Shown in pieces: positions 4,378-14,237 of a stretch of DNA of 64,000 nucleotides. The stretch's first letter is position 1. Every line of letters begins with the position of its first letter. The notes beneath the pieces were generated by a model. It had not been told where the DNA came from and did no database searches. It saw only the letters and a program-made list of their open reading frames with translations. The translations under genes and the position numbers were made by a program. Source of the DNA: Pseudomonadota bacterium (lineage in GTDB: Bacteria > Pseudomonadota > Gammaproteobacteria > Burkholderiales > Burkholderiaceae_C); NCBI GenBank assembly GCA_963204815.1, contig CAUJHQ010000048.1:45157-109156 (forward strand), in the 5' to 3' direction.

Positions 4378-4526
4378 CGCGCCGCCTGACCGCACCCACC
4401 TCGACCCGCTGCCCGGTGCAGCGGGCGTACCCGACGTCACGGCGCTCCGCCGCGACTGCCACCGCCGCGCGGGCATCGCGCGCGGCTGGCCGAAAGGCCA
4501 AGCTCAAGGAGATTTCCTATGGCTGA
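4374..4526 (+). CDS. Candidate 50-aa ORF bridging bchZ and pufB (possible coupling/leader peptide; may be non-coding)
   Basis: ATG at 4374 overlaps the bchZ TGA and the stop TGA (4524-4526) lies just inside puf[51 protein letters not shown]. Confidence 0.25.
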
Positions 4527-4665
4527 GAACAAGGGCTCGATCTCGGGCCTGACGGACGACGAGGCCCAGGAGTTCCACCGCTACTGGGTTCAGGGTTTCG
4601 TCGGCTTCACCGCCGTCGCGCTCGTGGCCCACATGCTGGTGTGGATCTGGCGCCCCTGGCTCTGA
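4519..4665 (+). CDS. pufB: LH1 (B870) beta polypeptide
   Basis: 48 aa [48 protein letters not shown]; AxxxH ligand and WRPW motif; SD AAGGAG. Confidence 0.95.
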
Positions 4666-4706
4666 ACGAACGACGCACTGCCTGACCTGGCAACAAGGGG
4701 AATTTC

Positions 4707-4931
4707 ATGGCCCGAGTCGAAAAAGTGATGCCGCAATCGATGGCGGCGAATGCATCCCGGGGTTTCGGGATCATCTTTGCCATCAGCTTCGTGGTGTTTC
4801 TCGCAATCGCCCTGTTCGGGCAATTGATCGGTTGGGACTGGCGTTCCGCATTGCCCGGCGCCGAGGGCGGCAAAACCGTTCTGGGCGGTGTCAAGGCGAG
4901 TGTTTATACCTTCATGTCGCATTTGCTCTAG
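4707..4931 (+). CDS. Uncharacterised 74-aa single-TM protein encoded between pufB and pufA
   Basis: ORF with SD-like AAGGGG; MARVEKVMPQSMAANASRGFGIIFAISFVVFLAIALFGQLIGWDWRSALPGAEGGKTVLGGVKASVYTFMSHLL; one hydrophobic helix. Confidence 0.75.
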   Translation: MARVEKVMPQSMAANASRGFGIIFAISFVVFLAIALFGQLIGWDWRSALPGAEGGKTVLGGVKASVYTFMSHLL

Positions 4932-4943
4932 GAGCTTGGAATC

Positions 4944-5144
4944 ATGTGGAGAATCTGGCGTCTCATCGACCCGTTGCGCGCTCTGGTCGTGCAAGGTGTT
5001 TTCCTGTTCGGCATCGCGGTGATGATTCACCTCATCCTGCTGAGCACGAACAAGTACAACTGGATGGATGGTCCGGCGAAAAAGGCGGTCGCTTCGGCGA
5101 ATTCGCCGACGCCGACGGCTGTCGCTTCGCTCACGGCGAAGTAG
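4944..5144 (+). CDS. pufA: LH1 (B870) alpha polypeptide
   Basis: 66 aa [43 protein letters not shown]; typical alpha N-terminus and His ligand. Confidence 0.95.
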
Positions 5145-5160
5145 GCCGCGTCCCGCACCG

Positions 5161-5203
5161 GGTCACGGGCGGGGCTGGTCAGTCCAGCCGGCTTCGCCCG
5201 ACC
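5161..5203 (+). promoter_or_regulatory. Intercistronic stem-loop between pufA and pufL (candidate mRNA stability element)
   Basis: CGGGCG(5166-5171)/CGCCCG(5195-5200) outer stem and GGCTGG(5173-5178)/CCAGCC(5184-5189) inner stem; GGT/ACC at the base. Confidence 0.65.
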
Positions 5204-5265
5204 ACCCACAGACATTCGCTGCTGTCGAGGCCCACTGAATTCGCCTCGCAGTCGGAGGAATCAAA

Positions 5266-6105
5266 ATGGCAATGCTGAGTTTCGAGCGGAAATACCGCGT
5301 GCGCGGTGGCACCCTCGTCGGCGGCGACCTGTTCGATTTCTGGATGGGCCCGTTCTACGTCGGATTCTTCGGCGTGACGACGGCCTTCTTCAGTTTCGTC
5401 GGCATCGCACTCATTCTCTGGGGCGCGGCGATGGGGCCGACCTGGAATCTGTGGCAGATCAGCATTGCACCGCCCGATCTTTCGTACGGCCTGCGCATCG
5501 CGCCGCTGCTCGAAGGCGGGCTGTGGCAGCTCATCACCGTCTGCGCGATCGGGGCCTTCGGTTCCTGGGCGCTGCGCGAGGTGGAGATCTGCCGAAAGCT
5601 GGGCATGCAGTACCACGTGCCGATCGCCTTCGCCTTCGCCATCGGCGCCTACGTCACGCTGGTCGTGATCCGGCCGCTGCTGCTGGGCGCCTGGGGGCAC
5701 GGCTTCCCGTACGGCATCTACAGCCACCTGGACTGGGTGTCCAACGTCGGCTACCAGTACCTGCACTTCCACTACAACCCCGCGCACATGATCGCGATCA
5801 GCTTCTTCTTCACGACGACGCTGGCGCTCTCGATGCACGGTGGCCTGATCCTGTCGGCCAGCAACCCGGCCAAGGGCGAGCTGGTGAAGACCACGGACTC
5901 GGAGGACACGTTCTTCCGCGACGCGGTGGGCTACTCGATCGGCTCGCTGGGCATCCACCGGCTGGGCCTGTTCCTGGCGCTCGCGGCGGTGTTCTTCAGC
6001 GCCGTCTGCATCGTCATCAGCGGCCCGTTCTGGACGCGCGGCTGGCCGGAATGGTGGGGCTGGTGGCTGAACATGCCGATCTGGTCGCATTGGCCCCTGA
6101 AGTGA
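5266..6105 (+). CDS. pufL: Photosynthetic reaction centre L subunit
   Basis: 279 aa [39 protein letters not shown]. Confidence 0.98.
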
Positions 6106-6120
6106 GCGGGAGGACACGAC

Positions 6121-7107
6121 ATGCCTGAATATCAAAACCTGTTCACCGCGGTGCAGGCCTCCGGGCCGGCCCACATGGGCGTGCCGCTGCCGCGGCGCGA
6201 CAGCCCGCGCACCGGCAAGACGCCGCTGAACATCCCGATCCTCGGCCGCCTGGGCATGGCCCAGGTGGGCCCGGTCTACCTGGGGGCGCTGGGCATCTGC
6301 TCGCTGATCTTCGGCGCGCTGGGCTTCGTCATCATCGGCTTCAACATGCTGGCCCAGGTCCACTGGGACCCGGTGCAGTTCGTGCGACAGCTGTTCTGGT
6401 TGTCGCTGGACCCGCCGTCGCCGAAGTACGGCCTGCACCTGCCGCCGCTCAACGAAGGCGGCTGGTGGCTGATGTCCGGCTGCTTCATCACCGTGTCCAT
6501 CCTGTTGTGGTGGACGCGCATGTACACCCGGGCCCGCTCGCTCGGCATGGGCACGCACGTGGCCTGGGCCTTCGCGGCGGCGATCTGGCTGTTCCTGGTG
6601 CTGGGCTTCATCCGCCCGGTGCTGATGGGCAGCTGGAGCGAGGCGGTGCCGTTCGGCATCTTCTCGCACCTGGACTGGACCGCGGCGTTCTCCATCCGCT
6701 ATGGCAACCTCTTCTACAACCCGTTCCACGCGCTGTCGATCGCCTTCCTCTACGGCTCGACGCTGCTGTTCGCGATGCACGGCGCCACCATCCTGGCGGT
6801 CAGCCGCTACGGCGGCGAACGTGAGCTCGAGCAGATCGTCGACCGCGGCACGGCCAGCGAACGTGCGGCGCTGTTCTGGCGCTGGACGATGGGCTTCAAC
6901 GCCACCACCGAATCCATCCACCGCTGGGCCTGGTGGTTCGCGGTGCTGTGCCCGCTGACCGGCGGCATCGGCATCCTGCTGTCGGGCACCGTGGTGGACA
7001 ACTGGTACCTGTGGTCGGTTCAGCACGGCGTGGCGCCGCCGTACCCGCCGGTGTTCGGCACCGTCGTCGATCCCGCCGCCGCGGCCCTGCCGGGAGTCAA
7101 GCCATGA
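6121..7107 (+). CDS. pufM: Photosynthetic reaction centre M subunit
   Basis: 328 aa [20 protein letters not shown]... Confidence 0.98.
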
Positions 7108-8477
7108 AGTCGATCTTCACCCGCTTCCTGCCGCTCGCGGCGCTCGGCGTCGCGGCGCTGCTGGCCGGCTGCGAACGCCCGCCGATCCAGTCGGTGCAGA
7201 CCGGCTATCGCGGCACCGGCATGCTGCAGGTCTACAACCCGCGCATCCTCAACGAGCAGATTCCGAACCACCAGCCGCCGGGCACGCCGCCTGTGCCGGC
7301 CTCGCCCGACGGCCCGCGCGCCAAGGACGTTCTGAAGAACGTGCAGGTGCTCGGCGACACCGGTGTCGCGGAGTTCACGAACCTGATGACGGCCATCACC
7401 GCGTGGGTGTCGCCGAAGGAAGGCTGCGCGTACTGCCACAACCTGCAGGACATGGCGGACGACTCCAAGTACGCCAAGGTCGTGGCGCGCCGCATGATCC
7501 AGATGACGCAGCACGTCAACGCCGACTGGAAGCCGCACGTGGCCGGTACCGGCGTCACCTGCTACACCTGCCACCGCGGCGAGCCGGTGCCGGCGCAGGC
7601 CTGGGTGACGGCGAAGTCGCAGGACAAGCGGTCCGACTTCATCGGCAACCTCGACGGCCAGAACCAGCCGGCGATGAGCGTCGGCCTCGCGTCGCTGCCC
7701 TACGACCCCTTCACGCCCTACCTGCTGAAGGGCGAGAAGATCGCGGTGCAGGCGACGAGCGCGCTGCCGCAGGGCCACGTGGCGTCGATCCAGGCCACCG
7801 AGGGCACCTATGCGCTGATGTTCCACATGTCGTATGCGCTCGGGGTGAACTGCACCTACTGCCACAACTCGCGCAGCTTCAACAACTGGCCGGAGAGCTC
7901 GCCGAAGCGCGGCATCGCCTGGCACGGCATCCGCATGGTGGGCGACCTCAACAATGCCTACCTCGAGCCGCTGACCAAGACCGTGCCGGCCACGCGCCTG
8001 GGCCCCGAGGGCGACATCCCGAAGGTGTCCTGCGCGACCTGCCACCAGGGCGCGTACAAGCCGGTCTACGGCGCGCAGATGGCGAAGGACTATCCGGCGC
8101 TGCTGGGCGCCCCGACGAAGGCCGCGGCCACTGCCGCGCTGCCGCCGCCGGTGGCCGAACCGACGCGCTCGGTGCTGTACTTCGGTGTCGGCTCACCGGT
8201 GCTGGACGCGGCGCAGTCCGCCGGCCTGGGGGCGCTGATCGAGCTGCTGAAGTCGTCGCCCAAGGTGATGGCCACGATCTCGGGCTTCCATTCGGCGGCC
8301 GGCACGCTGGCGCAGAACCAGGACCTGGCCAAGCAGCGCGCCTTCAACGTGCGCGACGCCCTCGTCGCGGCCGGCATCCCGGCGACGCGTGTCGCGCTCG
8401 CCAAGCCGCAGCAGACCGAGGCCAACGTCGCCGGCGAAGACCCGACGGCGCGCCGCGTCGAGGTGACGGTCCGCTAG
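7104..8477 (+). CDS. pufC: Photosynthetic reaction centre tetraheme cytochrome c subunit with C-terminal OmpA-like domain
   Basis: Lipobox LLAGC; four CXXCH (CAYCH, CYTCH, CTYCH, CATCH); C-terminus [74 protein letters not shown]...ARRVEVTVR resembles an OmpA C-terminal domain. Confidence 0.93.
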
Positions 8478-13850: not shown

Positions 13851-14069
13851 CTACTGCTTCAAGGGTGTCCCGGCCTGTGCGGTCACGGTGCTGGTGTCCA
13901 GCGCCGCGGCCTTCTTGGCCTTCATGCCACCTTCATGGTAGGCGGGCAGCCAGGTCGTGTGGGTGTACAGCATGTAGTGCACCATGAACGAGCTGACAGC
14001 CACGGCCGTCAGGAACAGGGGCACGCCGACCGTCGGCTTCACCACGCGCCAAATCTTGCCTTGGTTCAT
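13851..14069 (-). CDS. pucA: LH2 alpha polypeptide
   Basis: 72 aa MNQGKIWRVVKPTVGVPLFLTAVAVSSFMVHYMLYTHTTWLPAY... Confidence 0.93.
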   Translation of the reverse strand: MNQGKIWRVVKPTVGVPLFLTAVAVSSFMVHYMLYTHTTWLPAYHEGGMKAKKAAALDTSTVTAQAGTPLKQ

Positions 14070-14081
14070 TTGGTTTTCTCC

Positions 14082-14237
14082 TTAATGAAGCCAGGGCGAG
14101 TAGATGTACGCGAAGAAGTGCGCGAGCAGGGCGATCAGGCCGAACGTGCGGGTGCCGTCGACCAGTCCTTGCTGCAATTCTTCGGCTTCCGCCGTGGTCA
14201 AACCGGACGGCCAAACCCGATCGGGATCATTTGCCAT
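14082..14237 (-). CDS. pucB: LH2 beta polypeptide
   Basis: 51 aa MANDPDRVWPSGLTTAEAEELQQGLVDGTRTFGLIALLAHFFAYIYSPWLH; good SD AGGAG. Confidence 0.93.
   Translation of the reverse strand: MANDPDRVWPSGLTTAEAEELQQGLVDGTRTFGLIALLAHFFAYIYSPWLH

Follow-up and report, generated by a model that had tools for sequence, protein, structure and literature searches.

A conserved gene between pufB and pufA of phototrophic Burkholderiales encodes a putative LH1-beta paralogue without the BChl-ligand histidine

Introduction

An “ORF2” lies between pufB and pufA in the puf operon of Rubrivivax gelatinosus (Nagashima 1994, as relayed in PMC12817894). The relaying study asked whether the Gemmatimonas pufA2 might derive from ORF2, aligned ORF2 with PufA and noted its missing His. 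In Roseateles depolymerans, ORF74, also found between pufB and pufA, is carried by the major 1-kb pufBA transcript and ranks among the loci most strongly induced under starvation (PMC10037100). Neither PMC12817894 nor PMC10037100 assigns a function to ORF2/ORF74. PufQ, another small protein of puf operons, has a tail predicted to be cytoplasmic; it is absent from some purple bacteria, and how those regulate the branchpoint has been asked (PMC5725709).

Here, we analyse a 74-codon ORF located between pufB and pufA of a phototrophic member of Burkholderiales, in a window (i.e., the whole stretch of DNA that was analysed) of 64,000 nucleotides. Judging from its position, length and taxonomy, it is very probably the same gene as the ORF2 of Rubrivivax and the ORF74 of Roseateles, and it is called ORF2 hereafter.

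Results

A small gene within the puf operon

The gene order in the window is bchZ–pufB–ORF–pufA–pufL–pufM–pufC, with the following features:

4378..4518, + strand: bchZ–pufB gap of 141 nt, with no room for the U/PufQ-type gene found here in other purple bacteria
4519..4665, + strand: pufB, 48-aa LH1 beta of the short type, lacking the C-terminal tail (Pfam LHC: 2.1e-12; NCBIfam pufB_517_ASD: 4.2e-24)
4694..4701, + strand: Shine-Dalgarno (SD) sequence CAAGGGGA of the ORF at 4707-4931 (best anti-SD duplex)
4707..4931, + strand: ORF2/ORF74-type gene, 74-aa single-TM LH1-beta-like protein without BChl-ligand His
4821..4823, + strand: codon of Gln39, the residue aligned with the BChl-ligand His of PufB (joint alignment)
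4839..4928, + strand: conserved tail W45-R..PGAE..GGVKASVYTFMSHLL (alignment A1, entropy)
4944..5144, + strand: pufA, LH1 alpha (66 aa; Pfam LHC: 4.2e-13; NCBIfam pufA_517_ASD: 1.7e-18)
5166..5200, + strand: strong hairpin with a 14-bp stem, 3' of pufA (RNA fold of 5140-5265: −54.9 kcal/mol, z −1.9)
5266..6105, + strand: pufL (Pfam Photo_RC: 8.4e-97)
6121..7107, + strand: pufM (ORF and translation)
7104..8477, + strand: pufC, tetrahaem cytochrome with CxxCH motifs (ORF and translation)

The ORF runs from an ATG start to a TAG stop and encodes the protein MARVEKVMPQSMAANASRGFGIIFAISFVVFLAIALFGQLIGWDWRSALPGAEGGKTVLGGVKASVYTFMSHLL. pufB and pufA are spaced by 278 nt, and the ORF starts 41 nt past the former and ends 12 nt ahead of the latter. 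Its best anti-SD duplex (−7.6 kcal/mol) has about the strength of those of its neighbours (pufB: −8.5; pufA: −6.5 kcal/mol). The hairpin behind pufA would be of the type that bounds the abundant pufBA message. In puf operons, the segment up to such a hairpin usually makes the abundant LH1 message, and the hairpin would therefore place the ORF within that segment. AlphaFold2 predicts a helix at residues 13–47 and a second, low-confidence helix at residues 58–73, with a mean pLDDT of 64 (~92 at residues 21–30); outside the TM helix, the model is too uncertain to support a fold search. A preliminary description of this locus, made from the letters alone, had reported an SD-preceded, single-TM ORF in the gap between pufB and pufA; its coordinates prove exact, and the duplex and the predicted helix agree with it. 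It had also assumed co-transcription with the LH1/RC genes, which fits the transcript reported for the equivalent gene of Roseateles (PMC10037100).

Two further observations concern the surroundings of the gene. The third codon positions of the stretch 4707-5144 are poorer in GC (GC3 of ORF2: 0.72; of pufA: 0.79) than those of bchZ, pufB, pufL and pufM (0.93–0.95), possibly because this is a recombined segment or because codon optimisation is weaker. Two more LHC-family genes, probably pucB/pucA (LH2), are found in the same cluster on the minus strand (~13947-14192).

Conservation and selection

Homologues with 31–68% identity occupy the same site in dozens of genomes, which means that the ORF is not due to chance. 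Protein searches recovered it from most phototrophic relatives: an initial search over 61 genomes, together with a GTDB-wide scan of genomes, yielded 57 puf operons with the ORF, nearly always preceded by pufB and followed by pufA on the fetched stretches. Across a sample of 300 Burkholderiales genomes, pufL was detected in 37, each of them in exactly one of three states: ORF2 (28 genomes, plus one with a divergent copy), a long PufB with a tail (five genomes) or a gene upstream of pufB, termed U and presented below (three genomes). Within the window's own genus, the ORF is present in 21 of 22 further pufL-bearing genomes. The preliminary description had implied that such an arrangement is rare, pufB and pufA being normally adjacent, which does not hold: pufB–ORF–pufA is the order usually found in Burkholderiales, and its description goes back to 1994 (PMC12817894).

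Both conservation of the frame and dN/dS, two of the checks it had suggested, speak for a gene, dozens of relatives keeping the frame at this site and dN/dS being lower than 1 in 17/17 close pairs (range: 0.05–0.51). In the same comparison, one misaligned pufL pair (L005/L013) inflates the value for pufL. The ORF at 4707-4931 is a real gene, conserved and under purifying selection, even though its protein changes faster than that of pufB (pooled pN/pS: 0.37 vs. 0.14). An annotation of the ORF was sought in plasmid records, with no match.

An LH1-beta-like protein without the pigment ligand

When searched against the PDB with phmmer, the protein retrieves LH1 beta chains (8z81_B: 6e-8), while the confident matches of the ORF2 profile are LHC beta chains only, the best being beta chains with a C-terminal extension (8z81_B: 1.8e-16; 9m8m_B: 3.8e-13; 7xxf_B: 1.2e-12). 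Profile comparisons with hhalign likewise link ORF2 to long PufB (3.9e-21), be it from Burkholderiales (1.6e-26) or from other groups (1.9e-17), and a profile–profile match to the short PufB of the same operons is also obtained (2.8e-9). As a control, PufA reaches 0.05 with hhalign, and an origin of ORF2 from the alpha subunit was rejected on that score. With family models, the window protein has no Pfam match, being below the PF00556 cut-off, and among 56 ORF2 homologues six match Pfam LHC at E ≤ 1 (best: 0.0024) and 28 match NCBIfam pufB (best: 3.8e-5).

Profile similarity thus shows a common ancestry with PF00556, but the BChl-coordinating His of the TM helix is missing: in the joint alignment, it occupies this position in 75/75 PufB vs. 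0/56 ORF2 (47 Gln, 3 Ala and others). The N-terminal EFH motif of PufB is lost too, and the Trp of the W-R pair is retained in 56/56 ORF2. Eight positions do not vary at all in alignment A1, composed of these 56 proteins (A35, W45, P50, G51, A52, E53, V62, V66), and mean entropy amounts to 0.56–0.62 bits in two tail blocks, 1.6 in the TM helix and 2.8 at the N-terminus. Conservation in ORF2 is thus highest in the C-terminal tail.

In a tree of 79 short sequences, 23 of the 24 ORF2 form a single clade (support: 100/100) adjoining the long PufB of Burkholderiales; the deeper forks are unsure because alignment columns are few. Altogether, the sequence comparisons identify ORF2 as a paralogue of long-tailed LH1 beta. 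The simplest history would be a duplication of a long-tailed pufB, followed by loss of the tail in the antenna copy and by loss of the pigment in the copy that retained the tail. PufB being the kin of ORF2, the comparison recently made between Rubrivivax ORF2 and PufA (PMC12817894) needs to be corrected. Within the open-access subset of the literature that was covered, neither the assignment of ORF2 as a pigmentless LH1-beta derivative nor its exclusion with a homologue encoded upstream seems to have been described before.

PufX was rejected as a candidate, with no Pfam match (PF11511) in the ORF protein and pufC, not pufX, after pufM, and so were protein W and LH1 gamma, with no such chain among the PDB profile matches, which are LHC beta chains and one noise match. 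The guess of the preliminary description that the protein is an LH1-ring subunit or an assembly factor fits. The homology to LH1 beta, the absence of the ligand His and the exclusion with a PufQ-slot protein ahead of pufB (see below) had escaped it, and the likeness to PufX and protein W that it had drawn gets no sequence support from either Pfam or the PDB profile search.

Distribution of ORF2 and of its upstream counterpart

We use the label “U” for a His-less beta-like single-TM protein encoded upstream of pufB (alignment A2). It corresponds to an ORF of 70–95 aa between bchZ and pufB, at the PufQ position (e.g., L093:282-509; L115, minus strand, ~2519-2782; L122; L134), and occurs in many other Alpha- and Gammaproteobacteria as well as four Burkholderiales, i.e., three genomes of one genus (g67) and one genome of the window's own genus (G025). 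U has no Pfam family, but its profile matches a PDB beta chain (8z81_B: 8.7e-9), long PufB (2e-11) and ORF2 (1.1e-13). The ligand His is absent in 17/18 U proteins, which mostly have Arg where ORF2 has Gln, and the tail ends in motifs such as SVFGEAKAMAVSAIPFAFMG. Compared with the PDB, no tested beta fragment or PufL of the U-bearing loci is near-identical to a solved RC-LH1 entry.

PufQ proper (Pfam PF05398) stands at the bchZ–pufB site in 9/9 genomes of one family (f268, Rhodobacteraceae-type), to which it is confined here; none was found above the Pfam cut-off in the ORF2 genomes and Burkholderiales searched. The PufQ profile matches neither the window protein nor anything in its genome at E ≤ 1, and the ORF sits between pufB and pufA, not directly upstream of pufB. 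U and PufQ give a weak, suggestive alignment (2.3e-4; 45%; 64 columns), and the match of ORF2 to bona fide PufQ hardly rises above noise (1.2e-3; 19%).

On a PufL tree of 104 puf operons, ORF2 is found in 65 and U or PufQ in 26; none has both and 13 have neither. The lengths of the bchZ–pufB gap, in a set where some loci were fetched twice, are disjoint, with 105–196 nt in 86 ORF2 operons vs. 350–558 nt in 29 U/PufQ loci. When whole ORF2 genomes were searched with the U profile, no separate U gene turned up besides ORF2 and PufB, except in one genome of the window's genus (G030). The latter has U directly before a second pufL, without pufB or pufA (contig C167, L116:2334-2567), and a normal ORF2 operon on another contig; the genome may have two RC operons, or the assembly, which is in many contigs, may be mixed. 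The PufL tree implies at least 17 changes of state. In an independent-contrast test of the exclusion, the direction is never wrong, but just two phylogenetically independent ORF2/U exchanges have strong support, which is too few for a sign test, and the exclusion is thus a consistent pattern rather than a statistical proof. Some phototrophs of other classes (f258, G446, G926, G979) have neither ORF2 nor U/PufQ.

The five Burkholderiales without ORF2 or U (G216, G065, G290, G320, G202; loci L148, L149, L150, L151, L152) have a PufB of 76–78 aa with a U-like tail, which reads SMYEGIKAAVYNVVPYAFMG in G216. Scored on a model of the U tail, these tails reach 4.4–12.3 bits (four sequences), above both the median of −1.1 obtained for PufB in species with U and the 95th percentile of shuffled sequences (0.7). 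ORF2 tails score weakly on this tail-only model (median: −0.9), and the link between ORF2 and U is therefore drawn from whole-length profiles and position. The divergent ORF2 mentioned above (G088, L096:2772-3011) ends in ...SLFDGVRKAANSVIPLMFM and is intermediate between the ORF2 and U tail types, and one genus (g37) holds both the tailed-PufB state and the state with a short PufB and ORF2.

Discussion

Possible roles of ORF2

We tentatively propose, though with somewhat less than even confidence, that ORF2, a derivative of LH1 beta without pigment, acts in LH1/RC biogenesis and corresponds, in Burkholderiales, to the protein of the PufQ slot. Since the pigment-holding residue is lost, ORF2 probably helps to build or shape the light-harvesting ring and does not catch light. 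The TM helix, the W-R-x-W interface and the tail are kept, and the majority of phototrophic Burkholderiales have the gene as a fixed puf-operon member. The protein would insert like a beta subunit, with its N-terminus in the cytoplasm (charge did not settle the topology), would be made together with beta and alpha, and would act with LH1 during the assembly of the RC-LH1 core. There, it may occupy a beta position or hold nascent alpha/beta, the tail being the putative working part, and it would do the job done elsewhere by U, whose gene immediately precedes pufB in the PufQ slot. Several points count against this explanation: the weak scores of ORF2 tails on the U-tail model, the near-noise match to PufQ, the small number of independent exchanges, the phototrophs of other classes with neither gene, and a conflict in topology, as a beta-like tail would be periplasmic, whereas that of PufQ is predicted to be cytoplasmic (PMC5725709).

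The main rival to a biogenesis role is a low-copy ring or quinone-gate subunit, i.e., a stable component of the mature ring whose pigmentless beta-like helix would break or cap it for quinone passage, like PufX or protein W. Beta homology with loss of the ligand His, the conserved W-R-x-W and tail, and the transcript shared with LH1 (PMC10037100) suit such a subunit as well, and the long-tailed PufB that stands alone in some Burkholderiales indicates that the tail can sit on the ring. Nonetheless, we consider it rather unlikely: no PufX-type match was obtained, the counterpart occupies the PufQ slot and not the PufX slot, and a message at LH1 level (PMC10037100) would fit one subunit per ring only given lower translation or turnover. 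That neither phmmer nor the profile found a PDB chain corresponding to ORF2 is a weak objection, as no RC-LH1 from a near relative seems to have been solved (best L chain found: 515 bits vs. 644 for self), and the structural record therefore cannot decide.

That ORF2 is the PufQ of Burkholderiales in the strict sense, diverting porphyrin from haem to BChl through ferrochelatase binding, is improbable in our opinion. The slot exclusion with U/PufQ, the weak alignment of U with PufQ and the branchpoint control asked about for purple bacteria devoid of PufQ (PMC5725709) would agree with it, but ORF2 is not recognisable as PufQ, either by alignment or by Pfam, and a beta-like topology puts the conserved tail away from the ferrochelatase side. 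Finally, ORF2 might be a decayed or superfluous beta duplicate that does nothing by itself and is kept because it spaces pufB from pufA or tunes translation. This would agree with the low GC3 and the faster protein change, yet is very hard to believe in view of the purifying selection in all pairs, the invariance of W45, P50–E53, V62 and V66 in 56 sequences and the fixed location in dozens of genomes.

More broadly, and with more doubt than for the biogenesis role itself, a shared slot in the puf operon of purple bacteria may be held by pigmentless descendants of LH1 beta (ORF2 in Burkholderiales and U elsewhere as two lineages, perhaps PufQ as a far-diverged third) that guide LH1 assembly or gate the ring, with the working tail on PufB itself in some species. 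If true, these proteins would account for how species devoid of PufQ or PufX manage. A pigment-binding antenna subunit that keeps its place in the operon after losing its pigment site would plainly illustrate how an antenna protein can become a helper. ORF2 becomes a named candidate for building and opening the LH1 ring without PufX in Burkholderiales phototrophs, as well as for a PufQ substitute in the species reported to be without it, and its role is testable in the culturable Rubrivivax gelatinosus and Roseateles depolymerans.

Comparison with known systems

PufX, protein W and LH1 gamma are, like ORF2, small single-TM accessory proteins of RC-LH1, but they are encoded elsewhere and no sequence similarity with them was found. 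PufQ and U share with ORF2 the nature of a small single-TM puf-operon protein and mutual exclusion, U being moreover homologous to ORF2 by profile; unlike ORF2, their genes are located upstream of pufB, and PufQ proper hardly resembles it in sequence. Long-tailed LH1 beta (8z81_B, 7xxf_B, 9m8m_B; PF00556) shows profile homology to ORF2 across the TM helix, the W-R-x-W motif and the C-terminal tail, from which ORF2 differs by the lack of the BChl-ligand His and of the SGLTxxEAxEFH N-terminus and by falling below the Pfam cut-off. While Rubrivivax ORF2 had been set against PufA, the alpha subunit (PMC12817894), the match of the window gene is PufB, the beta subunit. The closest system is ORF2/ORF74 itself, which occupies the same site in the same bacterial group, and whose name ORF74 fits the 74 codons of the gene in the window.
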